NCBI GenBank assembly: GCA_017399145.1
Contig: JAFQEG010000004.1
Coordinates: 17,855-81,854, forward strand
Length of the DNA: 64,000 bases
Source: Clostridia bacterium
GTDB lineage: Bacteria; Bacillota; Clostridia; Oscillospirales; CAG-272
Reading direction: 5' to 3'
In this document: in pieces, positions 39,558-61,100 of the stretch
How positions within the stretch are numbered: the stretch's first letter is position 1
Layout of the letters: each line of letters starts with the position of its first letter
The notes under the pieces: generated by a model
What the model was told of the DNA's origin: nothing
What the model saw: only the letters and a program-made list of their open reading frames with translations
The model's database searches: none
Position numbers and translations under genes: made by a program

Positions 39558-41732
39558 TTATTCCCAAATTGTAACTTCGCCATCTACATAGTGCCAATAA
39601 TTGCCACTTATACTTGGCTCGCTTTCCCTATACCAATGTACAGGACGATTTGAATAGTTCCAGCCAATATTCCAACCACTTGGTTGGCTTTCAGCCTCAC
39701 AGTAGATTGTAAGTTTTGTGCAATTCCTAAAGGTCTCGTAGCCAATTGAAGTTACGCTACTTGAAATTACTACACTTGTAAGTCCTGTGCAACCAAAAAA
39801 GGCACCCTCGCCAATTGTGGTTACTCTATCCCCTATTGTAACACTTGTAAGTCCTGCACAACCAGAAAAGGCAGAGGAACCAATTGAGGTTACGCTATTT
39901 GGAATCACTACACTTGTAAGTCCTGTGCAAAATCTAAAGGCAGAGTCACCAATTGTGGTTACGCTATTTGGAATTTCTATATTTGTAAGACTTGTGCAAC
40001 CCTCAAAGGCACCCCAGTCAATTGTGGTTACGCTATTTGGAATTACTATACTTGTAAGTCCTGTACAACCCTCAAAGGTACTTACACCAATTGCAGTTAC
40101 GCTATTTGGAATTACTATACTTGTAAGTCCTGTACAACCCTCAAAGGTACCACTGCCGATTGTGGTTACGCTATTTGGAATTGTTACACTTGTAAGTCCT
40201 GTACAACCATAAAAGGCACTCCAGCCAATTGTGGTTACGCTATTTGGAATTACTACACTTGTAAGGCTTGTACAACCATAAAAGGCAAAGTTGCCAATTG
40301 TGGTTACGCTATTTGGAATTGTTACACTTGTAAGACTTGTACAACCATAAAAGGCACCATTGCCAATTGTGGTTACTTTATTTCCAATTGTTACACTTGT
40401 AAGTCCTGCACAACCAGAAAAGGTACTTACACCAATTGCGGTTACGCTATTTGGAATTACTACACTTGCAAGCCCTCTGCAATCCTTAAAGGCCTCGTAG
40501 CCAATTGAAGTTACACTATTTGGAATTGTAATACTTGTAAGTCCTGTGCAACCATAAAAGGCAGAGGAGCCAATTGTGGTTACGCTATTTGGAATTACTA
40601 CACTTGCAAGCCCTCTGCAATCCTTAAAGGCCTCGTAGCCAATTGCGGTAACAGTATATCCATTACCCTTATAGCTTATCTTTTCCTTTATATTTGTCGT
40701 AGTGATAGCTGTGCTTTGTCCTGCAACAATAGCTTTTCCTTCATAAATACTGTATCTTAAACCATCATCTACAAGATAAATCTTACCATCGTTTGCTACA
40801 TCATTATTTTTACAATTCCAAACAGCAGGGCAATCAAAGGGTTTCCACGAACTATCCCAACCGCTTGGTTGGCTTTCTGCCTCACAGTAGATTGTAAGTC
40901 CTTTGCAACCAGAAAAGGCAGAGGAGCCAATTGAAGTTACACTATTTGGAATTACTACACTTGTAAGCCCTGTGCAATATCTAAAGGCAGAGGAGCCAAT
41001 TGTGGTTACGCTATCCCCTATTGTAACACTTGTAAGCCCTGTACAACCAGAGAAGACATCGTCACCAATTGAAGTTACCTTCAAGCCTTTGTATTCTTCG
41101 GGAATTACTATGCTTGTTGCATTTTTATCGCAATCTACAACTGCATATCCATCTTGCTTTAACTCTAATTTAATGCCAGTATATTCCGTTTTTCCGTATA
41201 GCTTTAAATTACCAGTTGTCCCTTTTTCAATTTTAGAAATTGGATTTGTAAGCTCCTCGTCAAGATACCAACCTAAAAATTCGTAATAATCTTTATTACC
41301 GTCAGTAAGAACAATTTCATCCTCAACTGTGTATCTTGTTTTGTTGGTGTGATTTACCCCACCATTATATTCTATTGTATAAGTAATAGTAGTCCAGCTT
41401 GCCTCAAGAGTCATATCCTCGGTTGCCACGTAGCCAACGAATACCCATTCAACTCCGCCATAATACCAGCCATCACAGGTATATCCAGCCCTTGTAGGGT
41501 CTTGTGGTACTGGAATTTTTCCACCCTTTTCCACCTGTATGCTATCAATCGCACTTCCACCCTTTGTATCAAAGGTAATAGTTACGTAATTCTTGTTGTC
41601 TTCGATGTTTCCACCACCCTCAGTATTTCCACCATTTTCTGTGCCTGGGTTATCGTTTCCGCCACAGGACGCAAGTCCTATGCACAAAATTAAGCACAAA
41701 ATTGATAAAATTATAAGTAAGCCTTTTTTCAT
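39558..41732 (-). CDS. BspA-like LRR lipoprotein with InlB repeats
   Basis: 724 residues. A lipoprotein signal peptide ends in LASC, followed by a Gly/Asn-rich flexible stretch. Two InlB B-repeat-like modules come next (TFDTKGGSAIDSIQVEKG, IEYNGGVNHTNKTRYTVED), then about 20 LRR_5 repeats of 23 residues in two blocks, separated by an insert (DGKIYLVDDGLRYSIYEG). Each block ends in the motif LTIYCEAESQPSGW, also present in the LRR protein at 14.5 kb. The DNA of many repeats is nearly identical, so copy number may vary. It should be anchored to the outer membrane leaflet face; role in adhesion is inferred. Long plus-strand frames inside the gene are shadows of the repeats. Confidence 0.88.
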   Translation of the reverse strand: MKKGLLIILSILCLILCIGLASCGGNDNPGTENGGNTEGGGNIEDNKNYVTITFDTKGGSAIDSIQVEKGGKIPVPQDPTRAGYTCDGWYYGGVEWVFVGYVATEDMTLEASWTTITYTIEYNGGVNHTNKTRYTVEDEIVLTDGNKDYYEFLGWYLDEELTNPISKIEKGTTGNLKLYGKTEYTGIKLELKQDGYAVVDCDKNATSIVIPEEYKGLKVTSIGDDVFSGCTGLTSVTIGDSVTTIGSSAFRYCTGLTSVVIPNSVTSIGSSAFSGCKGLTIYCEAESQPSGWDSSWKPFDCPAVWNCKNNDVANDGKIYLVDDGLRYSIYEGKAIVAGQSTAITTTNIKEKISYKGNGYTVTAIGYEAFKDCRGLASVVIPNSVTTIGSSAFYGCTGLTSITIPNSVTSIGYEAFKDCRGLASVVIPNSVTAIGVSTFSGCAGLTSVTIGNKVTTIGNGAFYGCTSLTSVTIPNSVTTIGNFAFYGCTSLTSVVIPNSVTTIGWSAFYGCTGLTSVTIPNSVTTIGSGTFEGCTGLTSIVIPNSVTAIGVSTFEGCTGLTSIVIPNSVTTIDWGAFEGCTSLTNIEIPNSVTTIGDSAFRFCTGLTSVVIPNSVTSIGSSAFSGCAGLTSVTIGDRVTTIGEGAFFGCTGLTSVVISSSVTSIGYETFRNCTKLTIYCEAESQPSGWNIGWNYSNRPVHWYRESEPSISGNYWHYVDGEVTIWE

Positions 41733-47224: not shown

Positions 47225-48130
47225 ATGTATGATATTATAGTTGTCGGCGGTGGTCCAGCAGGGCTTACCGCCGCCCTATATGCACGTAGGGCAAATAAAA
47301 CAGTATTAGTTATCGAAAAGGAAACCTTCGGCGGTCAAATCACCCATTCCCCTTGCGTTGAAAACATTCCAGGCTTCGTTAAGCTTTCAGGCAACGAATT
47401 TGCCGAGAAAATGGTCGAGCAGGTTATGGAACAGGGTGCTGACGTTGAAATCGACGAGGTTATGGAGATAATTGATGGCGAAACTAAAACAGTTGTGTGC
47501 GAGGGTGCAAAATTTGAGGGCAAATCCGTAATAATTGCAACAGGCGCTAAGCATAGACTCTTAGGACTTGAGAGAGAAACCGACTTTATCGGTAACGGTA
47601 TTTCCTTCTGTGCCGTTTGTGACGGTGCATTTTACGAGGGAAAGACAGTTGCAGTTATCGGTGGTGGCAACTCTGCGCTTCAAGAGGCGCTTATGCTCTC
47701 CGACCTTTGTAAAAAGGTTTACGTTGTACAAAATCTTGACATACTAACAGGCGAGAAAAAGCTTCAAGAGCTTATCTCCAAGCGTGAAAATATTGAAGTT
47801 ATAACAGGCACACTTGTAAAGGAATTAAAGGGCGAGGTTGACCTTTCCTCAATCCTACTTGAAAATAACAAGGGTGAAAAAACCGAGCTTGTAATCGACG
47901 GAATGTTCGTTGCAATCGGTCTAATTCCACAAAACGACTTTGCTAAAAACGTAATCCCACTAAATAGCTACGGCTACGCACTAGCCGACGAGAGCTGTGT
48001 GGTTGATGCAAAGGGCATCTTCGTTGCCGGCGACTGCCGTCAAAAGCAAATCCGCCAAGTAGTCACCGCCTGTGCCGACGGCGCCACCGCCTCCCTCAAG
48101 GCTTGCGACTACGTCGACTCCCTTAAATAA
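47225..48130 (+). CDS. trxB: thioredoxin reductase-like flavoprotein
   Basis: 301 residues. FAD motif VVGGGPAGLTAALYAR (7-22), redox-active CAVC (129-132) in GISFCAVCDGAF, second nucleotide motif VIGGGNSALQEA, and the C-terminal FVAGDCRQKQIRQV. The stretch that holds the NADPH-specific HRRxxxR in typical TrxB reads VQNLDILTGEKKL (from 168), so NADPH use is uncertain; ferredoxin-dependent members of this fold lack the same motif. Directly after nrdD, it very probably reduces the redoxin domain fused to NrdD. Confidence 0.9.
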   Translation: MYDIIVVGGGPAGLTAALYARRANKTVLVIEKETFGGQITHSPCVENIPGFVKLSGNEFAEKMVEQVMEQGADVEIDEVMEIIDGETKTVVCEGAKFEGKSVIIATGAKHRLLGLERETDFIGNGISFCAVCDGAFYEGKTVAVIGGGNSALQEALMLSDLCKKVYVVQNLDILTGEKKLQELISKRENIEVITGTLVKELKGEVDLSSILLENNKGEKTELVIDGMFVAIGLIPQNDFAKNVIPLNSYGYALADESCVVDAKGIFVAGDCRQKQIRQVVTACADGATASLKACDYVDSLK

Positions 48131-48132
48131 AC

Positions 48133-48168
48133 AAAAAAACTCAAGGTAGTTATACCTTGAGTTTTTTT
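48133..48168. terminator. bidirectional terminator between trxB and the InlB-repeat gene
   Basis: AAAAAAACTCAAGGTA / TACCTTGAGTTTTTTT with loop GTTA. Confidence 0.9.
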
Positions 48169-48192
48169 GTTACCTAGTTTTAAGACTTAACG

Positions 48193-50091
48193 TTATTCAA
48201 CGTAGAACTCATACGTTATCGTGTTCAAATCACACTCAAAATTAACAGCGTTTGTGCCCCCGGCCCAATTTTCATATTCTTCAAATTCAACAACATAAAT
48301 GTATGCTAATATAAATTCAATTGCATCACCATCTACTACATATGTATTTTGACTGCTGTAATTTTTGTATACTTCATCTCCATAATATGGATTAGGATTT
48401 AATGGGTCCTCTGGTCGAATGGCTGGCCACCCTCCACCAGTAGCAACAAGCTTACCAATCTGGTTGCGCACTCCATCGTCAAATCCAGCATATATTGTTG
48501 CCGTGGCATCGTATTTGTTAGAACGATATTGCAACGATGCACTGCATTTTACTTTGATTTTGACACGAAGATGTCCTGTGGATTGAATATCTTTCAACTC
48601 CTCTGGTACTTCAATTTTAACATTTGTATTGCCGTCTATCCTTATTCTCGACACGTAGTTGGAACGCTTTGCAACAGTTCCTGTTATATTTTTAGTATAA
48701 GTCTGCTCATCAACCCAATGTGCATGTAGAATTTTGCCATTAGCATTTTTTAACTGAGTTGTTTTGTAGAAGTCACCTTGTCCATCATCGCTTTCATACC
48801 AACCAGCAAATATATAGTTATCCTTTTTAGCTAAAACTGGCAAGGTTACGCTTGAATCGTTTATATATAAATTAATATTTTCAACATTAAGTGTTCCACC
48901 GTTTAAGTCCAATTGCAAATTGTGAACCTCTGTTTTCCACTTAGCATAAATTTTTATGTCCTCTAAATTAGCTAATACGCTTGATCTATAAGGAGTTGTA
49001 TATGCAGAATCCATATACCAACCATCAAAGATATAGTATGTTCCTTCAACTACATTGTAGTCAGCATTTTCATAGTATTTTCCTTCGACCTTGCGAGATG
49101 GAGTTTTTATGTTAACCAAAGTGTCTTCAACTGTATAATAATATGTTCTGGTAGAGTCCCCTTCGTCACATACAATCTTGTAGCTATTGATTTGATATAC
49201 TGCAAATAATTCAAGTTGTCCATCCTCTAAATCAGGCAATCTATCAATTTCCTTTCCTACAGGAAAATCTACGCTTTCGCCCTCACTGCTTGTGCTCCAA
49301 CCACGGAAGGTGTATCCTCTTAATTGTGAAGCTGGCATTGTAAGCTTGTCTAAATAGTGTGCACTTTGAGATGCTGTATCGCATTGTCCCTCTCCAGCAT
49401 TATAAGTGATAGACAATTGGTCTGCTGCCCATTTTGCACTAAGCTTTACATCGCTTGTGACTACATCACTTGTAGCATTCCACTTTTCATTGCTTTCTGT
49501 GTACCAGCCCATCATATGAAAGCCATCTTTTTTTACATCTGTTGGAAATTCTATCTTATCCTCGTAATACAAGGTTGTACTACTATCGTCTTTCCCGTTG
49601 TTATATTCAAATGTAACAGTATATTGATTTTTCTCCCATGCTGCTTCTAGGACAATATCGCCAAATATACGATTCTTTTCAACATCCCAAATCTCTCCGT
49701 CTTCTGTACGGAAGCCTATCAAATGATATCCTTCCTTAATCTTATCAAAGGGAATTTCAAGATGCTTTCCAAAGGTTGAGCCGAATTCAATAGATTCGCC
49801 ACTACCGTCATTGACATTTACTGTAATATTATACTCTCTTATACCTAAAAAGTAGTATCCGATTAATACCACCGTACACAAAAGAACCGCAAGCACGATA
49901 AAGTGAGCCCTATGCTCCTGAAAATACATTTTTTTGGTGTATGTATTATTTTTATTAAATTGCTTATCAAACGTTGACACCGTGGACTTTTCTACCCTAG
50001 CAGTTCCACCAAAAAATTCTGAAAGCAACTTGGCTTTTCCAGAATATTTTGTTCTCTTGCCACCGTTATCGTCTAAATACCACTTACCCAT
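48193..50091 (-). CDS. membrane-anchored InlB-repeat protein of the type VII-like island
   Basis: 632 residues. A 63-residue basic N-terminal tail (cytoplasmic) is followed by a single TM helix (about 64-86, FIVLAVLLCTVVLIGYYFLG). The outside part holds about six InlB B-repeat / Listeria-Bacteroides-type modules, recognisable from YTVTFEYNNG, GYTFRGWSTS, YIFDGWYMDS and YIFAGWYES, then a 160-residue beta-rich C-terminal domain. It is the last gene of the leftward island. A surface stalk displaying the C-terminal domain is the simplest reading; the partner is unknown. AGGAGATTGGAG precedes the ATG. Confidence 0.83.
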   Translation of the reverse strand: MGKWYLDDNGGKRTKYSGKAKLLSEFFGGTARVEKSTVSTFDKQFNKNNTYTKKMYFQEHRAHFIVLAVLLCTVVLIGYYFLGIREYNITVNVNDGSGESIEFGSTFGKHLEIPFDKIKEGYHLIGFRTEDGEIWDVEKNRIFGDIVLEAAWEKNQYTVTFEYNNGKDDSSTTLYYEDKIEFPTDVKKDGFHMMGWYTESNEKWNATSDVVTSDVKLSAKWAADQLSITYNAGEGQCDTASQSAHYLDKLTMPASQLRGYTFRGWSTSSEGESVDFPVGKEIDRLPDLEDGQLELFAVYQINSYKIVCDEGDSTRTYYYTVEDTLVNIKTPSRKVEGKYYENADYNVVEGTYYIFDGWYMDSAYTTPYRSSVLANLEDIKIYAKWKTEVHNLQLDLNGGTLNVENINLYINDSSVTLPVLAKKDNYIFAGWYESDDGQGDFYKTTQLKNANGKILHAHWVDEQTYTKNITGTVAKRSNYVSRIRIDGNTNVKIEVPEELKDIQSTGHLRVKIKVKCSASLQYRSNKYDATATIYAGFDDGVRNQIGKLVATGGGWPAIRPEDPLNPNPYYGDEVYKNYSSQNTYVVDGDAIEFILAYIYVVEFEEYENWAGGTNAVNFECDLNTITYEFYVE

Positions 50092-50138
50092 TTTTTCTCC
50101 AATCTCCTCTTATTAATTCACTTTTGCGAATTATCCTT

Positions 50139-50732
50139 TCAGTTGGCATTAGGCTTCGCTTTGCTAGTTTGGTGCTTATCTCGGTAGCCATTAATTATGC
50201 TATCAGCTTCCGTTTCTGCCAAAGCCTCCAACTGTTCATAAAATGTCGCCATTTTTGAGGAAACCTCTTTTTGGGTAGCAGTCAAATATGATTTTTTTTC
50301 ATTTTCTATCATATCCTTATTGCCTTCTTTTGCCTCGTCAACAGCTAAGCTTAGCTTGTAATATTCCTCAACTACAACTGGCAGAATTTCCTCACAGTAT
50401 TTTGGATTCTTTCTAACTATATACCTAGGAGTTCTTTTTGCATTAATCATATCGATATAATACATAAACTTGTCAAAGTTTCCGACAGTATTGTTAGTAG
50501 AGACACCACCCTTTCTTACCTTTACAAGCTTTCTTATTTTTCTATGTAAATTAGAGGGCTTTATGCTATATAGCTTTTTCTTAAGCAGTTTTCCCACAAA
50601 TTTACTTTTACTCTTTCGTAGCTCGCCAACTCTTTCGATTTCAGCATATTTTTCATTACAAGCCTTTTGCTTTTCCTTCAAATATTCCGAATATGTAGCT
50701 GACAGCTTTTGATATTTTTCGTCAATCGTCAT
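50139..50732 (-). CDS. hypothetical helical protein of the type VII-like island
   Basis: 197 residues from ATG 50732 (MTIDEKYQKL), with GGAGAT 8 nt upstream; the longer frame to 50774 overlaps the preceding gene. Strongly charged and predicted helical throughout, with a Lys/Arg-rich middle (SKSKFVGKLLKKKLYSIKPSNLHRK is broken into two basic patches, residues about 40-75) and no membrane segment. It starts 4 bp after the coiled-coil protein gene. I do not recognise the family; a chaperone-like or adaptor role would fit its place but is unsupported. Confidence 0.65.
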   Translation of the reverse strand: MTIDEKYQKLSATYSEYLKEKQKACNEKYAEIERVGELRKSKSKFVGKLLKKKLYSIKPSNLHRKIRKLVKVRKGGVSTNNTVGNFDKFMYYIDMINAKRTPRYIVRKNPKYCEEILPVVVEEYYKLSLAVDEAKEGNKDMIENEKKSYLTATQKEVSSKMATFYEQLEALAETEADSIINGYRDKHQTSKAKPNAN

Positions 50733-50736
50733 TTGC

Positions 50737-52116
50737 TTATCTCCAAATTTTTTTATTACCACGATAATTTTCAATCGGTTTGTTGTTAACGTTGTTCACC
50801 TTTCTAACCTTATGAGAATCATAATACCCAACGAACTCATTTTTTTCATCTTTTATAGAATCCATTAATTCTTTTTCTTTTTTTGCTATTTCTGCTACTT
50901 CCTCTGCAAAACCCATGCATTGTTCACCATAAAACTTTATTATGTTTTCTATAGAATCCAATTCAACAACCAACTGTGTCTCAACCTTGTTCCCATTTTC
51001 GTCTTCTTTAAAAACTACCATTTCGGTATTTTTTCCATCTGGCGACCATGCTTCAACATCTTTCATTCCAACAGAAACACTAAGTCCAAAAGCAGCACAA
51101 ACGAGACCAATCCAACCGAAAACCCTTCTTTTTCTTTGAGTTGGTGTTAATCTATCCTTTGGAATGTCAATCTTTGCAAAACCAAAAGATGAATCGTCAT
51201 TAAATTTTAGATCATCTGCAAAGCTAATTGGGACCTGCTTCTTATCAAATGTGTTGTCTTCGCTCAAGTTTCGTCTATTTTCGTCAACTACTATCTCGCC
51301 ATAACGTCTTGCTATTTCCCTCTCTTGAGCTTCGATTTCGTCTGCAACTGCTTCATTCAAAGCCTTCCACTCTGGGTCTTGCATATACTTGTCACTGTCG
51401 CCCATTCCGTAATCATGCTTTTTTAAGTAGTCCGACATTTTTTGCATAGCAGATTTACTCTCGGGTGCATTCTCTATAACGTTTCGCATATCGTCGTCTA
51501 TGTCAACGCCAAATAGCTTGTTTGGTAATCCCTCTATTTTTATGCCATTGTATTCAGCTATGATGTCGCCAAGTGTTTTTAGCTTTATAAGTGCCGCCGA
51601 CGATAGTTCCTCGGTGGTGTATTCGCAACCACCTACAGACTCGGCAATTTCTCCCATGCTTTCATATGTAGTTCTTAACGATGCAGCCTGCATCTCTAAC
51701 TCTTCTTTTTTACTTTGAACTTCCTTTACCTTTTCTTGCAGCTGTTGCAATTGACCTTGAATCGCTTTTATTTGACTCAATACTGCTAAATATGCTGGGT
51801 TGTCCTCTTCTACGACATGTTCGTTTCCATCCTTATCCACATATACCTTTTTTATTTTAGGTGGAATTGTGGACAACTGACTGCTTAACTGCTCTAATTG
51901 AGAAGTAAGATTCTCAATTTGTGAGTTTAATCCAGCTAATTCCTCTGTGCACTGAGCTATGAGCTCTTGTGCTTTTTGGCTCTCTTCCATAATTTGGTTT
52001 TGAGCTTCTTTCGCCATGCTCCTGATTTTTTCGGACATTTCTCTTGCTTTTTCCTGCTGGTCTCTCACAGCATTAGAAAAGCTTCTAACATCGTCTTCAC
52101 TCACATTTGCTCTCAT
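50737..52116 (-). CDS. long coiled-coil protein with one membrane segment
   Basis: 459 residues. Residues 1-165 are a near-continuous coiled coil rich in Gln and Glu with heptads (QIENLTSQLEQLSSQL, QIKAIQGQLQQLQEKV). A mixed middle region follows, then one hydrophobic helix near residues 331-352 (RRVFGWIGLVCAAFGLSV), and a charged C-terminal part. The N-terminal coiled coil resembles the helical heads of LXG/type VII substrates, but a structural role like EssB/YukC is equally possible. Position between the small helical proteins and the InlB-repeat gene ties it to the island. Function not established. Confidence 0.7.
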   Translation of the reverse strand: MRANVSEDDVRSFSNAVRDQQEKAREMSEKIRSMAKEAQNQIMEESQKAQELIAQCTEELAGLNSQIENLTSQLEQLSSQLSTIPPKIKKVYVDKDGNEHVVEEDNPAYLAVLSQIKAIQGQLQQLQEKVKEVQSKKEELEMQAASLRTTYESMGEIAESVGGCEYTTEELSSAALIKLKTLGDIIAEYNGIKIEGLPNKLFGVDIDDDMRNVIENAPESKSAMQKMSDYLKKHDYGMGDSDKYMQDPEWKALNEAVADEIEAQEREIARRYGEIVVDENRRNLSEDNTFDKKQVPISFADDLKFNDDSSFGFAKIDIPKDRLTPTQRKRRVFGWIGLVCAAFGLSVSVGMKDVEAWSPDGKNTEMVVFKEDENGNKVETQLVVELDSIENIIKFYGEQCMGFAEEVAEIAKKEKELMDSIKDEKNEFVGYYDSHKVRKVNNVNNKPIENYRGNKKIWR

Positions 52117-52134
52117 TATTTACCTCTAATGTAC

Positions 52135-52386
52135 CTATTTCTGCGAACTGTATTTTTTATTTATTCCATCAATATCTATCGACTCCAATGATTTACAAGC
52201 TTCGCTTAACTGATTTGCCAAAGACGACAGCATATCTATTTGCTTTCCGTAAGCATCAATAAACTCACCAAACGAGTCGTGAACAGGGTCATCCCATGTC
52301 GAATTATAATAGCTACCATTCAAAGTGCTTTTTATGGAACTAGACTGGCCATCGATATTGCTTATTTTTTCAAGATTAAATATCAT
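52135..52386 (-). CDS. small WXG100-like protein with W-x-D motif
   Basis: 83 residues, predicted two-helix hairpin. At the turn it has TWDDPVHDSF: Trp31, Asp33 and Phe39, the same W-x-D-x5-F spacing as in the gene at 53060. WXG100 proteins are about 100 residues and carry W-x-G at the turn; the W-x-D form occurs in Firmicutes relatives. Likely exported by or structural in the FtsK-linked system. GGGGAT precedes the ATG. Confidence 0.65.
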   Translation of the reverse strand: MIFNLEKISNIDGQSSSIKSTLNGSYYNSTWDDPVHDSFGEFIDAYGKQIDMLSSLANQLSEACKSLESIDIDGINKKYSSQK

Positions 52387-52403
52387 TTTTATCCCCTTTG
52401 TGC

Positions 52404-52676
52404 TTAAAATCTTATTCGGTTATATGCCTCTACACATTCCATAAGCTTACCAAGATATTTTTTAGCCATTTCAAGCCTTGCATTCATATCATTTAACGCA
52501 TCTGTTGCGGTTGCAACCCTATTAGAAGTCCTTGTGTAGTTTATACTTGTAAACTCTTCGCCTGCAAGTTTAAGTCTTTTTTCAACAATTCCTATTAAAA
52601 ACTCTATTATTTCTATTGCTTCGGTAATACTGCTAGCACCGTCAATTAATGCGTTGGTATCTACACGCATATCCAT
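52404..52676 (-). CDS. small helical-hairpin protein (EF-NY-R family), copy 2
   Basis: 90 residues, mostly helical with a break at EEFTSINYTRT. The neighbouring gene at 52714 has DEFKTVNYERI in the same place, so the two are paralogues with a shared EFxx(I/V)NYxR turn where WXG proteins have Trp-x-Gly. Length, fold pattern and context match type VII substrates or scaffold partners. GAGGAAAT precedes the ATG. Confidence 0.65.
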   Translation of the reverse strand: MDMRVDTNALIDGASSITEAIEIIEFLIGIVEKRLKLAGEEFTSINYTRTSNRVATATDALNDMNARLEMAKKYLGKLMECVEAYNRIRF

Positions 52677-52713
52677 TTTATATTTCCTCGCTTCTTTGTG
52701 GCATTAATTCGCT

Positions 52714-53001
52714 TTATTCCCAAATTTTTCTAATTTTTTCCTCAAAATGTTTAACTGACTTTGAAAGCTCTAAAAGCTCTCCGCGGGCATTTTCCATTTT
52801 TTTTATAAAACCATCTACTGCTCCATCTATTCTTTCATAGTTAACAGTTTTAAATTCATCAGAAACTGACACCAATCTTCTCCTCATTATGCTCGCCACA
52901 TGCTCCAAGATATTGCATCTTTTTTCTATATCCACAATTGTATAGTGAATTGTCGATATGGACTCAATATTGTATTCATCAATATTTTCTTTTATTTTCA
53001 T
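52714..53001 (-). CDS. small helical-hairpin protein (EF-NY-R family), copy 1
   Basis: 95 residues: helix, turn DEFKTVNYERIDG, second helix with heptads (MENARGELLELSKSVKHFEEKI) split by the sequence itself, ending IRKIWE. Paralogue of the 52404 gene. No signal peptide, as expected for WXG-type proteins. AGAGGT lies upstream of the ATG. Confidence 0.65.
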   Translation of the reverse strand: MKIKENIDEYNIESISTIHYTIVDIEKRCNILEHVASIMRRRLVSVSDEFKTVNYERIDGAVDGFIKKMENARGELLELSKSVKHFEEKIRKIWE

Positions 53002-53059
53002 TCGTTACATTACCTCTTTCGTTGTTAAATATCTTTACCATCAAACATTAAGATTTTCA

Positions 53060-53323
53060 CTAATCATAATGTGTCAATCGTCTTTCTAGGTCCGCTCTCG
53101 CCTCTTCTAATATTGCTAAGTCTTTTTTTAGTGCAGTAGTTATCTCCTCAATAAAACCTTTAAACTGATGATATTGCGCATCCTTCCACGCCTCTTCTAA
53201 ATCGTCAGTTTTTCTTTTTATCATGTTTAATTCCGCTGTTACAGCCTCATCAAATTCATACAAGTCCTTAATTACTTTCCTTACAACTACTGCCTTGGAT
53301 CTTCCCTTTTCATAAATTGGCAT
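53060..53323 (-). CDS. small WXG100-like protein with W-x-D motif
   Basis: 87 residues. The turn reads LEEAWKDAQYHQF with Trp46, Asp48 and Phe54, a good match to W-x-D variants of WXG100. Both flanks are amphipathic helices. It is the first small gene after the FtsK-like ATPase (46 bp gap) with AAAGGAGA as ribosome site, the typical order for a type VII substrate next to its motor. Confidence 0.72.
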   Translation of the reverse strand: MPIYEKGRSKAVVVRKVIKDLYEFDEAVTAELNMIKRKTDDLEEAWKDAQYHQFKGFIEEITTALKKDLAILEEARADLERRLTHYD

Positions 53324-53369
53324 ATATACATTCTCCTTTTCATTTTAATTATGGTTTAGTTTTTAAGAC

Positions 53370-56300
53370 TTATTTTCTCATTAGTCCCTTGTGCTGATAG
53401 TATCTAAACTTGCAAAATATTTGCTGGTTAATAGAGGCAAACGCCATATTTTCGTTTACTCCGTTTAGCATAGTTGCCTTAAAACTATTGCCTATAATAT
53501 TAGATCCAGCATCGCTTGGATTCTGTACCAAAATCTTGTAGGCACTCATTCCTAATATTTCACCATCTGCATGTGAAAATAATTTTTCTCCCAAACTGCT
53601 AGTTAAATGCATTGAATCCATTGAAATACATACAAACATATTAACTTTATAGGCATTGTTTAACAAACTCATAAGAGTTTCCTTTCCAACAATTACCGTA
53701 TTGCTATCGTTTGTCTTTAATCCTATTTGTTGCTTCAATTGCGCCGTAATCTCTCCTATTGACATATCGCTCTCGCTTTCCTCTGACAAACTAAGCTCAT
53801 ATCCCTTTATTAGTTTTTTATTGTCAAGCAAATCCGCTATATTTTGAGTAGCATTAATTACAAAAACAAGTGGCTTGTGCTTGTCTCTCAAATTTGCAGT
53901 TCTTTTCTCGTAGATATCCTGTACCATTTTTAATGCTTTAAGATAATCTTTCTCATCAACGCATTTTACCAATGGAGAAGTTTCTTGGTCGCAAATACTC
54001 TTTAACTGTTGCTTCATTGAAGCATCAACAACAATCGTATCGCACCCTCTCTTAATGGATGAAATAACAACAGATGCTAAAATATTGTCGTGTGCCTCTT
54101 GATTTGATCCAACCATAACAAGAGGTCTGCTATTTTCAAAGAGTCCTGTTACTACTGAATGGTCAGAATAGTTTTCACCGAATGGAATATCGTAGGCATC
54201 TTGGGAAAGCAAGCTTTCGAATTTATCTCCTTCAATTTCCAATGGAGATTGGTCGCCAATGCTTACTACATCAATTGGGTAATCGCTCCATTTTTCACGA
54301 ATTCGTTTTGCATACTCGTCGGTTTTTCCACCATCCCAAGCAATTCTTATTTTCTCACAATCGGCGCCAGAATTGTTAGATGCAAATGCCATGTATGAGC
54401 CCACAGGCACTGTACTTGAAACCAAGCTTGCATACTTTTTGCTTAGCATTTTCTCTGCATCGTCCTTATCTACATCAAAGCAGTATCTACCATCTACAAA
54501 TTTAATGGTGCTACTCATTTTATGTGACAAGGCTTGTGTTGCAAGAATCAAATGTATTCCTTGAGAACGACATTTTCTAACAATATCCTCACACTTTTTG
54601 GCAAGAGATTCTTCTTCAAACAAATATTGACATTCATCAATAATTATTATCAATCTAGGCATTTTTTTCTTGCCATATGAATTTGATACAATCTCCCTGT
54701 TGTACTCAGCAATATTCTTAATGGTTTTGCCTATTTTTCTTTCAAGTGCAAGGAATTCCTTGTTTCTTCTTTCGCTTTCTGCAAGAATATTAGAAAGTAT
54801 TATTCCACCCTCTTCTGGCTTATTATTTTGAGAAAGCACCTTAACGTGAGGAATTTTGCATTCATCCGTTGCATAAACAGAGGATGATATACCATCCTTA
54901 AAGTCTAATAGCTGGAAGATAACATCATCAGGTGAATACTTCATAGCACCATTTATAATCATTGAGTCAATAAGTGTAGATTTACCTGTACCAGGCTTAC
55001 CTAAAACCAAATTAGCTATTGGTGCCTTTCCTACGCAGTTAAGCTCAACCTCCCATACATTAGGCTCGTTAAGTCCGATAGGTATAACAATCGCCTCGTG
55101 TTGGCTAGGGTCAGCCTCAGCCTCACCAAAGCCGATTCTTTCATAAGGTATGTATGAAAGCTCATTTTCCTTAGAATTTTTGCAATAATTGCTACAAAAA
55201 TCGTACACATGCTGTGCTTCCATCGACTCAGACACTTTTATCAAATCTACGTTACAGCCATTTTTATCAGTAAATACTCCGTCCTTTAACTCAAAAACCT
55301 GACACATTGATGTCATCTGAGTTAAAATGTTGCGATAGGAGGCTGACCTTCTGTCATCAGGCTTGTCAGTAGAAAAATCATCTACTATGATAAATCTAAC
55401 ACCACAGTGGTAAAGACCCTTAATACAGCCATAAAATGCCTTTAGGTTTTCCTCTGAAAGCCCATTCAGTATATTATGAACAACTACTATTTGATATTGT
55501 TCCGTCCTTATTCCCTTTTCATAAAGCCCGTTCAAATCAAAGCAATCATTTTCCAATAGCTTAGCTCTTATTTGATTGCTTCTATTTTCTACTGTATTTA
55601 ATAGCATATTGAATCTTTGCTGATTTGTGCATGGCTCATCCATTACAGAAAATCCATTTTTGATAACAGCACTATATACAGCATTCAATTTTTTCATTGA
55701 GGAAAAATAGGAGCTACAAATTGCCACCTTAGCAGACCCAGATGGATATGCTTCTAAGTAATTCAATAGCAATCCAACGAGAGTGTTTTCCACAATCGAA
55801 TCAAAGGTATCAAATCCACTGTTATCTATTTGCAAAATAACATTACCCTCGTTTTTTGCATCAATATCATATGGAATCCTTATTACCTCTTCACTAATTA
55901 TTTTTGCAAGCTCCTCGTTTGTGTTAAGCAAGCAATTTCCAATAGATATATACTCCGGCACCTTTTTTGCCTTGTTAGGAATAGACATATTGTTGTAATC
56001 CTCAACGCAACGACCTTTTTCCTCGAGATATCTTTCTTTTATAACCTGATAATATTTATCCCTTTTAGCAAAATATTTGCTCTTTTCTTCCTCTATTTCC
56101 TTATCTCTTTCTTCCTCAAGCTTCTTTTTTTCCTTTTCAGCTTGAGAAAAATCTTTTCTTTGTCGCTCTTCTAAAGAATTTAGCTTCTCTGCTAGTGCCT
56201 TTAATACCTTTTTTGTCTGGTCAATCTGTTGCTGAGTTGTTGCGGTTGCAGTGATTTTCACGTCAAACATGGAAAGTGTTTCCTTATTCTTTGCGTAGAA

Positions 56301-56522
56301 ATCCTTTTGTAGCAAATAGTTAATTCCGTCCTTTAGTGTCTTTTTATTAATCTCTATTTGACCTTCAACAGCTTTAATATCATCCTCTAGCTTTTTCAAT
56401 TCTCCAAATTTTTCAGCAATTATTTTCGCATACCTATCCGTTATTTGTTTCAATGCGTCATTCGCCGTTCCCCTAAGCTTTTTAATTTTTGGAGAAAACT
56501 CCACTAAATCATTTACTAGCAT
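53370..56522 (-). CDS. soluble FtsK/SpoIIIE-type ATPase with N-terminal coiled coil (EssC-like)
   Basis: 1050 residues, no transmembrane segment. Residues about 10-175 are charged coiled coil. Residues about 200-440 look like a degenerate ATPase module. The central domain has an intact Walker A, GKPGTGKST (508-516), LDFKDGI, and Walker B RLIIIIDE (623-630), followed by the ILATQALS sensor typical of FtsK-HerA motors. A C-terminal third module (from about 785) begins LVMVGSNQEAHDN, a Walker A that has lost its Lys. Three ATPase modules with only one intact recalls EssC/EccC of type VII secretion, but EssC carries FHA domains and two TM helices that are absent here. AGGGAG precedes the ATG. First gene of the island; its promoter must lie in or beyond the putative invertible segment. 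Confidence 0.82.
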   Translation of the reverse strand: MLVNDLVEFSPKIKKLRGTANDALKQITDRYAKIIAEKFGELKKLEDDIKAVEGQIEINKKTLKDGINYLLQKDFYAKNKETLSMFDVKITATATTQQQIDQTKKVLKALAEKLNSLEERQRKDFSQAEKEKKKLEEERDKEIEEEKSKYFAKRDKYYQVIKERYLEEKGRCVEDYNNMSIPNKAKKVPEYISIGNCLLNTNEELAKIISEEVIRIPYDIDAKNEGNVILQIDNSGFDTFDSIVENTLVGLLLNYLEAYPSGSAKVAICSSYFSSMKKLNAVYSAVIKNGFSVMDEPCTNQQRFNMLLNTVENRSNQIRAKLLENDCFDLNGLYEKGIRTEQYQIVVVHNILNGLSEENLKAFYGCIKGLYHCGVRFIIVDDFSTDKPDDRRSASYRNILTQMTSMCQVFELKDGVFTDKNGCNVDLIKVSESMEAQHVYDFCSNYCKNSKENELSYIPYERIGFGEAEADPSQHEAIVIPIGLNEPNVWEVELNCVGKAPIANLVLGKPGTGKSTLIDSMIINGAMKYSPDDVIFQLLDFKDGISSSVYATDECKIPHVKVLSQNNKPEEGGIILSNILAESERRNKEFLALERKIGKTIKNIAEYNREIVSNSYGKKKMPRLIIIIDECQYLFEEESLAKKCEDIVRKCRSQGIHLILATQALSHKMSSTIKFVDGRYCFDVDKDDAEKMLSKKYASLVSSTVPVGSYMAFASNNSGADCEKIRIAWDGGKTDEYAKRIREKWSDYPIDVVSIGDQSPLEIEGDKFESLLSQDAYDIPFGENYSDHSVVTGLFENSRPLVMVGSNQEAHDNILASVVISSIKRGCDTIVVDASMKQQLKSICDQETSPLVKCVDEKDYLKALKMVQDIYEKRTANLRDKHKPLVFVINATQNIADLLDNKKLIKGYELSLSEESESDMSIGEITAQLKQQIGLKTNDSNTVIVGKETLMSLLNNAYKVNMFVCISMDSMHLTSSLGEKLFSHADGEILGMSAYKILVQNPSDAGSNIIGNSFKATMLNGVNENMAFASINQQIFCKFRYYQHKGLMRK

Positions 56523-56554
56523 CTCTTAAACTCCCTAAACTTATTTTTTGACAA

Positions 56555-56590
56555 AAAAACACCACATAATTGATATTATGTGGTGTTTTT
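56555..56590. promoter_or_regulatory. left recombination-site-like palindrome (IR-L), also a strong terminator
   Basis: Perfect 16-bp stem, AAAAACACCACATAAT / ATTATGTGGTGTTTTT, with loop TGAT; on the minus strand it runs into a T tract, so as it stands it can terminate leftward transcription just before the FtsK-like gene. Core CATAATTGATATTATG is at 56565-56580, with TTGATA (56570-56575) as a 6-bp spacer between 9-11 bp arms, the layout of a tyrosine-recombinase crossover site. Confidence 0.75.
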
Positions 56591-56717
56591 AATGGCTATA
56601 TAAAGTTTTTTATAAGAATTTAGGCTGGAGCCTAGAAGAATATAAGTGGTTTAATCTTTTAATTGTTGACTTATACATGCAATTGTGATAAAATTTAATT
56701 AGAATTACATAAATTTC
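56591..56717. other. putative invertible segment
   Basis: No coding sequence. On the plus strand it carries TTGACT (56666-56671), 17 bp, TAAAAT (56689-56694) with TGA in front as an extended -10; it points away from the FtsK-like gene. On the minus strand a weaker candidate, TTGATA (56732-56727, in the IR-R spacer), 17 bp, TGTAAT (56709-56704), points toward it. A small palindrome TAGGCT-gg-AGCCTA lies at 56621-56634. Confidence 0.5.
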
Positions 56718-56741
56718 ACAACATAATATCAATTATGTTGT
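56718..56741. promoter_or_regulatory. right recombination-site-like palindrome (IR-R)
   Basis: ACAACATAAT-atca-ATTATGTTGT, ending 1 bp before the recombinase stop codon. Its minus strand contains the same 16-bp core CATAATTGATATTATG (56737-56722) as IR-L, so the two sites are inverted with an identical spacer. Confidence 0.75.
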
Positions 56742-56742
56742 A

Positions 56743-57582
56743 TTAACACCTAACAAGCCCTAGTTGTTGTATTTGCATTTGATGAATTTCCCCTGTTTCC
56801 ATAGTATAAATTCGTGTAGTGTTAACACTGCTGTGGCCTAGTATATCAGCAAGTCGCACAACATCCTTTTCTTTGGCATAATAGGTCCTTGCAAATAGGT
56901 GACGAAGATTATGTGGAAATGCCTTTTTCTCTGACACTCCTGTTTTTCTGCTTAGTTCTTTAATTTCACTCCAAATATTTGACCTATCGAGCGGATTCCC
57001 ATTTTTGCTTACAAAAATTGGGCCTTTTTTTATTTGTCTTTTTTGTGCATATTCTTTTAATCTTTCGCAAAGTTGAATGGGTAAAAATGCATACCTGTGT
57101 TTTCCTTTGCAGCTTATTTCAGCCCTTTGATGTTCAATTGCTTCAACCGTTATAAATCTTAATTCTGATACCCGAATTCCCGTTGAACACATAGCTTGAA
57201 TTAACAAATACAACCTTTGGTCCTTTTTCCTTTCCGCAATTGAAAGAAGCTCTTCATATTCAACCTTTGTTAATTCCCTTTCCTTTGAAGCAAATAGCTG
57301 TTTTTGTATTTTTAATGTTTTAACTCGCAAATCAAACCATTCTAGATAGTTAAAAAAGCTATTAAGTGATGACAGCATAGAATTAACACTTGTTGCAGTA
57401 TATTTTTTCATCAAATATCCCTTGTAATCCAACACGCAAGACTTGTCAAGCTTTTTATCCCGAGCCCAATTATGAAAGGTGTTAATATCTCTCATATATT
57501 TTTCTATTGTAGCACTTGATTTTTCTTCTTCAATTAACCGTTGTTTGAAGCTTTCGATGTTGAAAGATGTAATTTTTTTCAT
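56743..57582 (-). CDS. tyrosine site-specific recombinase
   Basis: 279 residues, XerC/D-like size. An N-terminal SAM-like core-binding domain (1-95) precedes the catalytic domain with all six residues: Arg137 (STGIRVSELR), Lys159/161 (CKGKHR), His224 and Arg227 (HNLRH), His250 (LGHSSVNTT) and nucleophile Tyr259 (RIYT). Plain integrases of this size often drive DNA inversion. The two inverted site-like palindromes start just past its stop codon and separate it from the FtsK-like gene, which makes it the obvious candidate enzyme for an invertible promoter. AAAGGAGAT precedes the ATG. It is not followed by excisionase or phage genes. Confidence 0.92.
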   Translation of the reverse strand: MKKITSFNIESFKQRLIEEEKSSATIEKYMRDINTFHNWARDKKLDKSCVLDYKGYLMKKYTATSVNSMLSSLNSFFNYLEWFDLRVKTLKIQKQLFASKERELTKVEYEELLSIAERKKDQRLYLLIQAMCSTGIRVSELRFITVEAIEHQRAEISCKGKHRYAFLPIQLCERLKEYAQKRQIKKGPIFVSKNGNPLDRSNIWSEIKELSRKTGVSEKKAFPHNLRHLFARTYYAKEKDVVRLADILGHSSVNTTRIYTMETGEIHQMQIQQLGLVRC

Positions 57583-57668
57583 TTTTTATCTCCTTTTTCC
57601 TTTATATTTTCCAATTAATTAAAAGACAATTCACACATCCACAAAACCTTTTTTAGTTATACCTTAAA

Positions 57669-57712
57669 CGTGCAAAGCACTCATAACGTTGACCCGTGGT
57701 CAATTCATAACT
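57669..57712. repeat. tandem mini-hairpin array 4 (two units)
   Basis: CGTGC-aaa-GCAC then GTTGACC-cgt-GGTCAAT, each followed by TCATAAC, the same linker as in array 2, abutting the terminator at 57714. Confidence 0.75.
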
Positions 57713-57713
57713 G

Positions 57714-57743
57714 AAAAAAGCCTTGACGATTTTCGTCAAGGCT
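57714..57743 (-). terminator. terminator of the decayed secreted-protein gene
   Basis: AGCCTTGACGA / TCGTCAAGGCT stem; six T follow on the minus strand. Confidence 0.8.
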
Positions 57744-57749
57744 CTTTTC

Positions 57750-57892
57750 TTACTTCTTAATTCCTAGTTGCTCAAGAATTGAGTCTGCTACAATGCCTCG
57801 TTTGTTGTCTGTGCGAATACTGAAATTGACATAACCAATACCAAAGAAAGCACGCATAAAACAACTAGAAAAAGTTTGCTTGACTTCTTCAT
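57750..57892 (-). pseudogene. decayed secreted-protein gene: signal peptide plus frameshifted tail
   Basis: From ATG 57892 the frame reads a complete signal peptide (MKKSSKLFLVVLCVLS ... SISVFAQ) and stops after 34 residues at 57788. In another frame the tail continues ...ADSILEQLGIKK to a TAA at 57750, just before a terminator. Promoter (57914-57942), AAGGAG ribosome site and terminator are intact, so only the body of the gene seems to have been lost by deletion. A functional short exported peptide is the alternative. The rest of 57583-58106 is promoter sequence and the hairpin array. Confidence 0.6.
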
Positions 57893-57913
57893 TTTTTGTT
57901 CTCCTTTGCCTTG

Positions 57914-57942
57914 AATATACTATAAATTAGGTTAAAATGCAA
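57914..57942 (-). promoter_or_regulatory. promoter of the decayed secreted-protein gene
   Basis: Minus strand TTGCAT (57942-57937), 17 bp, TATATT (57919-57914). Confidence 0.5.
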
Positions 57943-57979
57943 GGTTTATTTTGTAAAAAATAAAAAAACTATCCACCTG

Positions 57980-58016
57980 CTTTGTTCAAACTTTGTTCAC
58001 ATATTAGTGCTATAAT
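57980..58016 (+). promoter_or_regulatory. promoter of the CoA-dehydratase activase gene
   Basis: Extended -10, TGC-TATAAT (58008-58016), with no clear -35 but two direct CTTTGTTCA repeats (57980-57999) 11 bp apart in its place, which may be activator sites. The ATG follows 90 bp on, after AAAGGAG. Confidence 0.5.
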
Positions 58017-58106
58017 GTAAGGTGGATTATTATTGAAATCCAATCAATCGACAATTTTTACATTTATATACTTACTTATTGTGCAGTCGCGCAAGAAAGG
58101 AGAAAA

Positions 58107-61100
58107 ATGAACAAATATCGTATAGGTATTGACGTAGGCTCAACTACTGTAAAGGTAGTAGTCATAGACGAGAAAAATACAATACTCTTTGGCGAGTACG
58201 AAAGGCATTGCGCCCACACACAGGAAAAGCTTTGTGAGCTTTTAAAAAGGGCTCAGGAACAGCTTGGTGATTTTGAATTACAGGCGCAAATCACAGGCTC
58301 AGGTGCTATCAACCTTGGCAAGGCATTAAATATCGACTTTATTCAAGAGGTAGCCTCAGTTGCCTCTGCCCTAAAGTTTTTAGCGCCTCAAACCGACGTT
58401 GCAATCGAGCTAGGTGGCGAGGACGCAAAAATAATTTACTTCGATGGTAACAACATCGAGGAAAGAATGAACGGAATTTGTGCCGGTGGCACAGGCTCGT
58501 TTATTGACCAAATGGCAGCGATTTTGCAGACTGACGCAACAGGCTTAAACCGTGAGGCGGAAAATTACAAGCAAATTTACCCAATTGCAGCTCGCTGTGG
58601 CGTATTTGCAAAAACCGACATTCAGCCCCTTATTAACGAGGGCGCAACAAAGGCAGACCTATCTGCCTCAATCTTCCAATCCGTTGTAAATCAAACGGTA
58701 TCAGGTCTTGCCTGTGGCAAGCCAATCCGTGGCTGTGTTGCGTTCCTTGGTGGACCGCTTCACTTCTTGCCCGAGCTAAAAAAGGCGTTTATAAGAACAC
58801 TTAAGCTAACACCGGAAACAACGGTTGATCCGGACAATTCTCACCTCTTTGCAGCCTATGGCGCAGCAATTGAGTGTACGGATAAAACCCCAAAAACAAC
58901 CCTTTCAAGCCTTATTGAAAGCCTTGACAAGGGCGTAAAAATGGAATTTGAGCTAAAAAGGCTTGACCCCTTGTTCGAAAACGAGCAGGACTACGAGGAA
59001 TTTATAAAAAGACATGCCCGTGCAACAGTTAAAAAGGGCGACCTTTCTACATACGAGGGCAACTGCTTCCTAGGAATTGACGCAGGCTCTACCACAACTA
59101 AGGTAGCCTTAATTAGCGAAAATGGCGAGCTACTCTATTCCTTCTACGAAAATAATCAAGGGTCACCAATTAAGGCGACCCAAAAGGCAATGGCTCAGCT
59201 CTCTGCCCTAATGCCCAAAAATGCAAGAATTGCTTATTCCTGCTCAACAGGCTATGGTGAAAAGCTACTAAAATCTGCCCTTTGCCTTGACTGTGGCGAG
59301 GTTGAAACAATAGCCCATTGTACCGCTGCCGAGTTTTTCGACCCAGCCGTTGACTGTGTACTTGACATAGGCGGACAGGACATGAAATGCGTTAAGCTAA
59401 AGAATGGTAGCGTTGACAACATTCTTCTAAACGAGGCTTGCTCCTCTGGCTGTGGCTCATTTATTGAGTCCTTTGCCAATTCTCTTGGCTATACCGCAAA
59501 GGATTTTGCAAAGGAGGCAATCCTTGCTAAAAACCCAATCGACCTAGGCACAAGATGCACTGTATTTATGAACTCAAACGTAAAGCAAGCACAAAAGGAG
59601 GGCGCAACCGTGCCCGACATTTCTGCCGGTCTTGCCTACTCGGTTATCAAAAACGCACTTTATAAGGTAATTAAATTAAATTCACCAAGTGACCTAGGTG
59701 CCCACGTTGTAGTACAGGGTGGTACCTTCTATAACCACGCAGTTTTACGTGCCTTTGAAAAAATTTCTGGAGTTGAGGCTACCTGTCCTGACATTTCAGG
59801 AATAATGGGTGCCTTCGGTGCTTCTCTAATTGCTAAAAACAGATGGCATGGCAAACAAACTACCACACTTTCCTTTGAGGAAATCGAAAATCTTACCTTC
59901 ACAACCGAAACAATTCGTTGTGGTGGTTGCTCAAATAAATGTATTCTTACAGTAAATAAATTCCCAGGTGGCAGACGACACATTACAGGCAATCGCTGTG
60001 AAAAGGGCTCAGGTGAAAAAATCGAGGGTCAAAGAGGCGAAAACCTTTGTGCCTATAAGCTTGAAAGGATTCTAGGCTATGAATCCTTGCCTAAGGAAAT
60101 GGCTCCCCGCGGTGTTATCGGCATACCAAGAGTTTTAAATATTTACGAAAACTACCCCTTCTGGGCAACCTTCTTTAAGGAATTAGGCTTTAGCGTTGTC
60201 CTATCCCCAAAATCCACAAGAAAGCTTTACGAGATGGGTATGGACACAATCCCCTCGGAATCCGAGTGCTACCCTGCAAAGCTTGCCCACGGACATATAA
60301 AGTGGCTAATCGAAAATGGCATCGACACTATTTTCTATCCTTGCGTTTTCTATGAAAACCAGGAAAACGAGGGAAGCCAAAACCACTACAATTGCCCTAT
60401 CGTTGTTTCCTACTCTGAAAACATCAAAAACAACGTTGAGGAAATTGTTGAGGGTAAAATTCGCTACCTTCGTCCCTTTATTGCCTTTACAAGCCAAGCA
60501 ATCGCCACCGAGCGACTTTGCAATTACTTCACTAAGGAAAGACCATTCTTTAACCTTACTGAGAGTGAAATCAAAAAGGCAGTTGACAAGGCTTGGAGGG
60601 AGCAACAAACCGCTAAGGAGGACGTACGCAAAAAGGGTGCCGAAGCACTTAAAAATCTTGAAAATAGCGGGGGACGTGGCATAGTTTTAGCCGGTAGGCC
60701 CTACCACCTTGACCCAGAAATCAACCATGGTATCCCTGAATTGATAGCCTCTTATGGCTTTACTGTGTTTACCGAGGACTCCCTACCAATAGTCCACGAC
60801 CAAATCAAAAATCTAAGAGTAAACGACCAATGGGTTTACCACTCAAGACTATATAACGCAGCAACCTATATTCGTGATAAGGAAAATTTAGAGTTAATTC
60901 AGCTAAATTCCTTTGGCTGTGGCATTGACGCAGTAACAACCGACCAGGTTAGCGAAATACTTGAGGGAAGTGGCAAGCTTTACACAGTTTTGAAAATAGA
61001 CGAGGTAAACAACCTAGGCGCTGTGCGTATTAGAATTAGAAGTCTAATCTCTGCTATGAATATGCGTCGTGAAAAGGGAATTTTGCCAAATCCCGTACCC

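Follow-up and report, generated by a model that had tools for sequence, protein, structure and literature searches.

A probable promoter-inversion switch beside a tyrosine recombinase gene, facing a provisionally type VII-like island in a Clostridia bacterium

Invertible promoters linked to a recombinase are already known. In the E. coli fim switch (FimB/FimE), the promoter lies inside the inverted segment and the recombinase genes lie near the switch, an arrangement that allows feedback from orientation to recombinase, as described in the accessible part of PMC2784873. The same source describes the C. difficile cwpV switch, in which about 200 bp are inverted by the XerC/XerD-type tyrosine recombinase RecV and a terminator is present in the OFF state. 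A 2025 survey of invertons lists, in its accessible text, an inverton group 139 with 33 members, 32 of them from Clostridia, whose nearby tyrosine-type recombinase belongs to invertase group 35; orientation shifts in reads are reported there for Clostridium sp. D5 and Intestinimonas butyriciproducens (PMC11892184). The locus considered here lies in a 64,000-nucleotide stretch of DNA (the window) from a Clostridia assembly of 1.83 Mb that is 76% complete, and it appears to combine inverted repeats, an internal promoter and an adjacent recombinase gene. We consider it highly probable that the segment at 56564-56738 is a promoter-inversion switch, flipped by a recombinase and OFF as assembled, and that the neighbouring island is transcribed after inversion.

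The predicted recombination sites share a 16-bp core, CATAATTGATATTATG, which is found at 56565-56580 on the plus strand and at 56722-56737 on the minus strand and nowhere else in the window as an exact copy. The initial annotation had described these two inverted copies with their TTGATA spacer, and its coordinates proved exact to the base. With up to three mismatches the core has five matches in the window, against 1.05 +/- 1.03 in shuffled sequence, and 0 of 100 shuffles reach five; with up to two mismatches, the source assembly holds the two exact copies and four places with two mismatches. Both cores extend to a perfect 18 bp, ACATAA-TTGATA-TTATGT, in inverted copies at 56564-56581 and 56721-56738, and each is embedded in a palindrome, the left one with 16-nt arms and a 4-nt loop, the right one with 10-nt arms and a 4-nt loop (Table 1). 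The recombinase reading frame ends 1 bp from the right palindrome and the start of the FtsK-like gene, at 56522, is 32 bp from the left palindrome, both distances being as first described.

Between the sites we found the plus-strand promoter TTGACT-17-TGA-TAAAAT that had been reported there, and its position in the inverted segment is likewise the one claimed. When the segment was shuffled 30 times, one shuffle reached the score of this promoter. Over the region 48000-58200, promoter-like matches showed no excess over chance (32 against 35.2 +/- 7.0 expected), and a weak leftward candidate, TTGATA-17-TGTAAT, is legible in the present-state sequence. Once the segment is inverted, the -10 element would by computation end 85 bp before the FtsK-like start codon. 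A terminator for leftward transcripts had been read into the left palindrome, together with its disruption by inversion. Folded as leftward RNA, the left hairpin indeed has a free energy of -19.2 kcal/mol (z -6.1) with T7 behind it, and the hairpin at the same site is much weaker, -8.8 kcal/mol, after in-silico inversion.

We propose that the adjacent tyrosine recombinase binds both inverted ACATAA-N6-TTATGT sites and that strand exchange within the 6-bp spacer would flip the segment. In the OFF state, the promoter would fire toward the recombinase gene, in antisense, and the left-site hairpin would block leftward read-through; in the ON state after inversion, with the promoter turned toward the island and the hairpin weakened, transcription of all eight island genes would follow. 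Antisense transcription in the OFF state could also lower the recombinase and so stabilise OFF, which would fit the excess of OFF assemblies among relatives described below. Flipping in the window's own strain, and by the adjacent recombinase, is what the arrangement of the sequence predicts, and transcription would be expected to follow promoter direction.

Table 1. Positions in the window of the predicted switch, the recombinase gene and the island.
Feature	Position	Strand	Remarks
Predicted invertible segment	56564..56738		core-to-core 157 bp = 14.95 turns of 10.5 bp
Left palindrome with predicted recombination site	56555..56590		18-bp core ACATAATTGATATTATGT at 56564-56581; in present orientation also terminator-like hairpin, then T7, for leftward transcripts
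Promoter TTGACT-17-TGA-TAAAAT (extended -10)	56666..56694	+	aims at recombinase gene now (OFF); 56636-56608 (-) after inversion
Right palindrome with predicted recombination site	56718..56741		core 56721-56738, inverted relative to left core
Tyrosine recombinase, 279 aa, predicted invertase	56743..57582	-	R137, H224, R227, H250 and Y259 invariant among 13 relatives
FtsK/SpoIIIE-type ATPase, 1050 aa	53370..56522	-	nearest named models EssC/EccC; first island gene
WXG100-like protein, 87 aa	53060..53323	-	24.8 bits against gathering score of 27.3
Small protein, 95 aa	52714..53001	-	no convincing family
Small protein, 90 aa	52404..52676	-	no family
Small protein, 83 aa	52135..52386	-	no family; weak match (E 7e-4) to 98-aa protein of second FtsK cluster
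459-aa protein	50737..52116	-	coiled-coil-type matches only
211-aa protein	50139..50774	-	no family; longest ORF form, TTG start
632-aa protein, Listeria-Bacteroides repeats	48193..50091	-	last same-strand island gene

The window's recombinase falls below the curated NCBIfam cut-offs for XerA_Arch (146.4 against 220 bits), XerD (122.2 against 329.6) and XerC (116.4 against 335.15), and as no such cut-off is reached we rejected its identity as a housekeeping XerC, XerD or XerA. Its subfamily, taken at E below 1e-45, is present in 13 of 57 genomes searched, its own included. At E <= 1e-60, relatives occur in at least 111 of 394 genomes of the order and in 63 of 391 genomes of the class, the own genome being part of both samples. 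A scan of named genomes gave at least 584 relatives, the best 80 of which come, judging by title, mostly from animal-gut MAGs; isolates among these 80 include Clostridium symbiosum, Neglectibacter timonensis, Fournierella massiliensis and Anaerotignum lactatifermentans. One genome (G039) holds several recombinase copies, on contigs C11, C7, C20 and C5 (L082-L085), each followed by the variant site ACATTA-N6-TAATGT, and three recombinase contigs of this genome, all with the spacer TTGGTA, break off 103-129 bp beyond the gene. G002, a genome of the same genus as that of the window, has the contig of L089, a Clostridia MAG from a water deer caecum, which places the window in a gut lineage of Clostridia.

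These best 80 of at least 584 relatives, with 21 loci from other genome searches, made up a discovery set of 101 loci. A site pair was defined as two ACATAA-N6-TTATGT sites lying 3' of the recombinase, each with at most three arm mismatches, inverted relative to one another and with the same asymmetric spacer. Such a pair is present at 77 of the 101 loci, compared with 5 of 2020 shuffled flanks and 0 of 73 upstream flanks; if only loci with 400 bp or more on the 3' side are counted, the proportion is 77 of 85. (L089 and G002, which share one contig, are each counted in the 77, the 85, the 76 segments below and the segment-pair alignments; G002, L167 and L125 are left out of the phasing, hairpin, spacer and internal-stem counts.) Within a pair the search rule makes the spacers identical; across 74 loci they take 57 different forms, as would follow from protein binding to the arms and a spacer that need only match its partner. 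The near site begins less than 100 bp from the end of the recombinase gene except at two of the 77 loci, G031.C14 (268 bp) and G056 (2.8 kb). No recognisable pair was seen at five discovery loci with enough 3' sequence, namely L130, L134, L136, G036 and L151, the last with a truncated recombinase gene; at L140 and L165 the inverted pair is built of other arms, and the 3' region of L137 contains an N gap. A held-out set was hand-picked as 80 regions, 40 each from the order and class matches listed, passing over first-set genomes and most genes without 3' room. Removal of 12 copies of discovery loci and of eight regions without a pair (four with less than 150 bp of 3' sequence and four without a recognisable pair despite enough of it) left 60. 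On viral contigs, the pair is present at 9 of the 17 loci checked, out of 27 found. Site pairs are coupled to the recombinase across the family, and this co-occurrence suggests that the enzyme and the sites belong together.

Segments between the sites are rich in strong promoters. The best promoter score per segment averages 17.7, against 14.2 +/- 1.1 in shuffles, and a score of at least 18 is reached by 43 of 76 segments compared with 7 of 2280 shuffles. In these 76 discovery segments, from which the 2.3-kb segment of G033 was left out, the promoter points to the recombinase (OFF) in 57, to the target gene (ON) in 10 and is ambiguous in 9; stricter limits give 45 OFF, 8 ON and 2 ambiguous, and the 60 held-out segments divide into 37 OFF, 17 ON and 6 ambiguous. 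The OFF and ON classes have mirror-image distances to the faced site, mostly of 43-47, 53-58 or 64-69 bp. The initial annotation had called the window's copy OFF and had pointed to the orientation in related genomes; the call stands, in that the promoter faces the recombinase gene, and both promoter orientations are present among the relatives.

At 73 of 77 loci, the first ORF of 60 codons or more past the far site points away from the switch (three are opposite and one has none), at a median distance of 39 bp. Judged from N-termini and one annotation, many of the targets would be secreted or lipoprotein-like; that annotation is of an S-layer homology protein, a putative target encoded past the recombinase in Pusillibacter faecalis. 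At L101, L110, L115 and L128 the first gene past the switch encodes about 190-210 aa, and we take the N-termini to resemble those of TetR-type regulators, so that some switches may control a regulator. L114, L291 and L332 have comparably scored promoters facing both ways within one segment and may therefore drive a gene in either state. At L077 (G033:C81) the inverted-site pair spans 2.3 kb (24-2326 bp past the recombinase) and surrounds a whole 642-aa gene, not a promoter-sized segment. At L076 (G056:C14), two divergent genes of 839 and 797 aa occupy the stretch 0.2-5.7 kb past the recombinase; the gap separating them is bounded by the sites, and their products start with the same signal-peptide-like sequence, so that inversion there could alternate two surface proteins.

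Homologous segments lie in opposite orientations in different relatives. Among segment pairs with an alignment score of at least 24 and a difference of at least 8, which are not independent of one another, same-state pairs align directly in 66 cases and inverted in 4, and opposite-state pairs align inverted in 36 cases and directly in none. With a score of at least 28 and no difference filter, one opposite-state pair, L107/L266, aligns slightly better directly (29.5 to 25). The clearest case of opposite orientation is that of L092 (OFF) and L266 (ON), whose recombinases are 91% alike: the inner segments are identical at 194 of 226 positions (86%) with one of them inverted and at 133 of 176 uninverted, the recombinase-side flank is collinear (512 of 607 identical), and the 500 nt on the target side are more diverged (284 of 391). 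It is hardly credible, then, that no inversion occurs and that an ordinary integrase simply adjoins palindromes acting as terminators or operators. The left palindrome of the window is terminator-like, and tyrosine recombinases are common beside many kinds of repeat, but such a reading leaves aside both the family-wide match of the spacers in inverted orientation and the inverted homologous segments themselves.

A change of orientation among near-identical sequences was sought and none was seen: L172 and L173 lie the same way, and all 11 comparable held-out copies of discovery loci have the orientation of the originals. Contigs end within 300 bp on the recombinase's 3' side at 10 of 80 loci and on its 5' side at 2 of 80. 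We give this excess no weight as a sign of mixed orientation, because repeated recombinase copies explain it equally well and because the two sides are equal at 1000 bp (12 and 11). A switch that inverted formerly and is now fixed OFF in the window's lineage would accord with the one orientation known for that lineage and with the outer parts of the two palindromes, which differ (37-nt arms, 81% complementary). Such locking is nevertheless very improbable, since the recombinase is full-length with its invariant residues, both 18-bp cores are perfect and the segment length is in phase. We continue to favour a switch that inverts its promoter.

Inversion might also act on termination, as in CwpV, by making or breaking a terminator for transcripts started upstream, for example from the recombinase gene, with the internal promoter secondary. 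CwpV offers a precedent in which, according to the accessible part of PMC2784873, the promoter lies outside the inverted segment. The contrast between the OFF and inverted hairpins of the window would suit this mode of control, and a difference of at least 6 kcal/mol in the strength of the target-side hairpin favours the OFF state at 18 of 64 loci and the ON state at 4. At a threshold of 3 kcal/mol, however, the excess is just 23 to 13, a T tract accompanies the target-side hairpin at just 14 of the 64 loci, and strong oriented promoters inside the segments are common; we therefore judge control primarily by termination improbable. For the recombinase-side hairpin at the same 64 loci, the corresponding counts are 4 OFF and 1 ON at 6 kcal/mol or more, and 10 and 10 at 3 or more. 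An OFF-only terminator recurs in the family and is not general.

Inside the segments, a strict terminator scan found little (toward the target, 3 of 54 OFF and 0 of 10 ON). A CCAATG...CATTGG hairpin stands behind the promoter in 27 of 118 segments, including those of L092, L266, G030 and G013, and is absent from the window's segment. A stem of at least 8 in the part away from the promoter occurs in 73 of the 118 segments, against 53 of 590 shuffles, and a T-rich tail follows the internal stem 16 times toward the target and 7 times toward the recombinase. On one reading, these internal stems serve as an orientation-independent insulator.

A separate sign that the segments are kept as recombining loops comes from their lengths. 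A short loop needs whole-turn spacing to bring two sites face to face, and core-to-core lengths in the discovery set cluster at whole turns (R 0.586 at 10.5 bp, n=73, with 0 of 2000 jitters as strong; best period 10.4 bp on scanning 6-20). The distance from the -10 element to the faced site is also phased (R 0.692, n=63, 0 of 5000 jitters as strong). The held-out set gave the same picture at 10.5 bp, with R 0.567 for length (n=60) and 0.723 for the -10-to-site distance (n=50), best periods of 10.7 and 0 of 5000 jitters as strong for each. Control distances in the discovery set gave R 0.19 and 0.11; for the control from recombinase end to site, periodicity is weak among the held-out loci (R 0.265, with 102 of 5000 jitters as strong) and not clear in the discovery set (R 0.19, p ~0.07). 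The window's switch is in phase in both respects, with a length of 157 bp and a promoter-site distance of 44 bp.

Between the -10 element and the site, TATGTA occurs at 26 of 64 loci (shuffles: mean 1.8, maximum 6), and 12 of 64 segments have a six-letter half-site match, on either strand, behind the promoter. Phasing of the TACATA half-site itself is only weak (R 0.46, n=26), a strength that 12 of 2000 jitters reach. The excess of TATGTA hints at a protein bound beside the start site. A promoter on a fixed helix face within a whole-turn segment could arise from coupling of the recombinase loop to RNA polymerase: recombinase bound at the sites or at TATGTA would tune the promoter, and the antisense transcript would stabilise OFF. 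The switch would then limit itself and flip at a rate set by its state, and here it would act on a phase-variable type VII-like island. We put this forward tentatively, as a possibility that we rather doubt.

The island itself extends from 56522 to 48193 and consists of eight ORFs, all on the minus strand, which are predicted to form one operon. The type VII-like character initially assigned to it stands in part. The ATPase scores 65.7 bits against FtsK_SpoIIIE (cut-off 24) and has EssC as its best named NCBIfam model, and the 87-aa protein comes near the threshold of the WXG100 family PF06013 (24.8 against 27.3 bits; TIGR03930, 19.6 against 44.85). In its FtsK/SpoIIIE ATPase and small proteins of WXG100 size, the island thus resembles the type VII secretion of Firmicutes (EssC, WXG100). 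It is unlike these systems in that the ATPase, at 67.2 bits, remains far under the EssC cut-off of 778.4, and in that profile comparison of the eight island proteins gave no match to the membrane-core proteins EssA, EssB and EsaA. We therefore use the type VII label provisionally.

The same genome holds a second cluster (L197:7261-17517; G000:C7) in which a 1262-aa FtsK-like protein is accompanied by other ATPase-like pieces, by small proteins (81-98 aa) and by proteins of coiled-coil size. When the eight island proteins were compared with the 77 paired discovery loci, many of them short, no FtsK-like or WXG100-like target was found; the 90-aa protein has one weak match, in L147 (E 1.4e-4), and the repeat protein has matches in L091, L096, L112 and G033. 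Elsewhere in the window, at 39558-41732 on the minus strand, a 724-aa lipoprotein-like ORF is made of many near-identical repeats and presumably resembles BspA-type leucine-rich proteins.

If the switch operates as proposed, a type VII-like island would be bet-hedged by DNA inversion. Pairs of ACATAA-N6-TTATGT sites beside a recombinase would make switches and their state readable from single assemblies of uncultured Clostridia, and the helical phasing would be a natural record of how short-loop synapsis constrains regulatory DNA. In the open literature, a scope that leaves most subscription papers outside, we found no type VII-like cargo on an inverton among the matches listed, nor any paper joining 'inverton' and 'type VII secretion'; the nearest cargo match, a paper on M. 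tuberculosis, concerns homopolymer tracts in its accessible part. Within the same scope, and among the matches listed, helical phasing of such switches was not found, the nearest papers being, from their accessible parts, on 'helical phasing' in the serine recombinase Hin and on C. difficile flagella.

Compared by description, the family of the window's switch may well be that of inverton group 139. The start-to-start distances of the group 139 repeats, 231 and 241 bp by our subtraction of the printed coordinates, fall in length clusters seen here, and the terms 'type VII' and 'WXG100' are absent from the main text of the survey, the part accessible to us (PMC11892184). With cwpV, as far as the accessible description goes, the window's locus shares a short inverted segment, a tyrosine recombinase and an OFF-state terminator-like hairpin; it differs in that cwpV has its promoter outside the inverted segment and no recV nearby (PMC2784873). 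Relative to fim, again by description, it has one recombinase gene, with its 3' end facing the switch, and other sites and other cargo, but as in fim the promoter lies inside the segment and a recombinase gene lies near.
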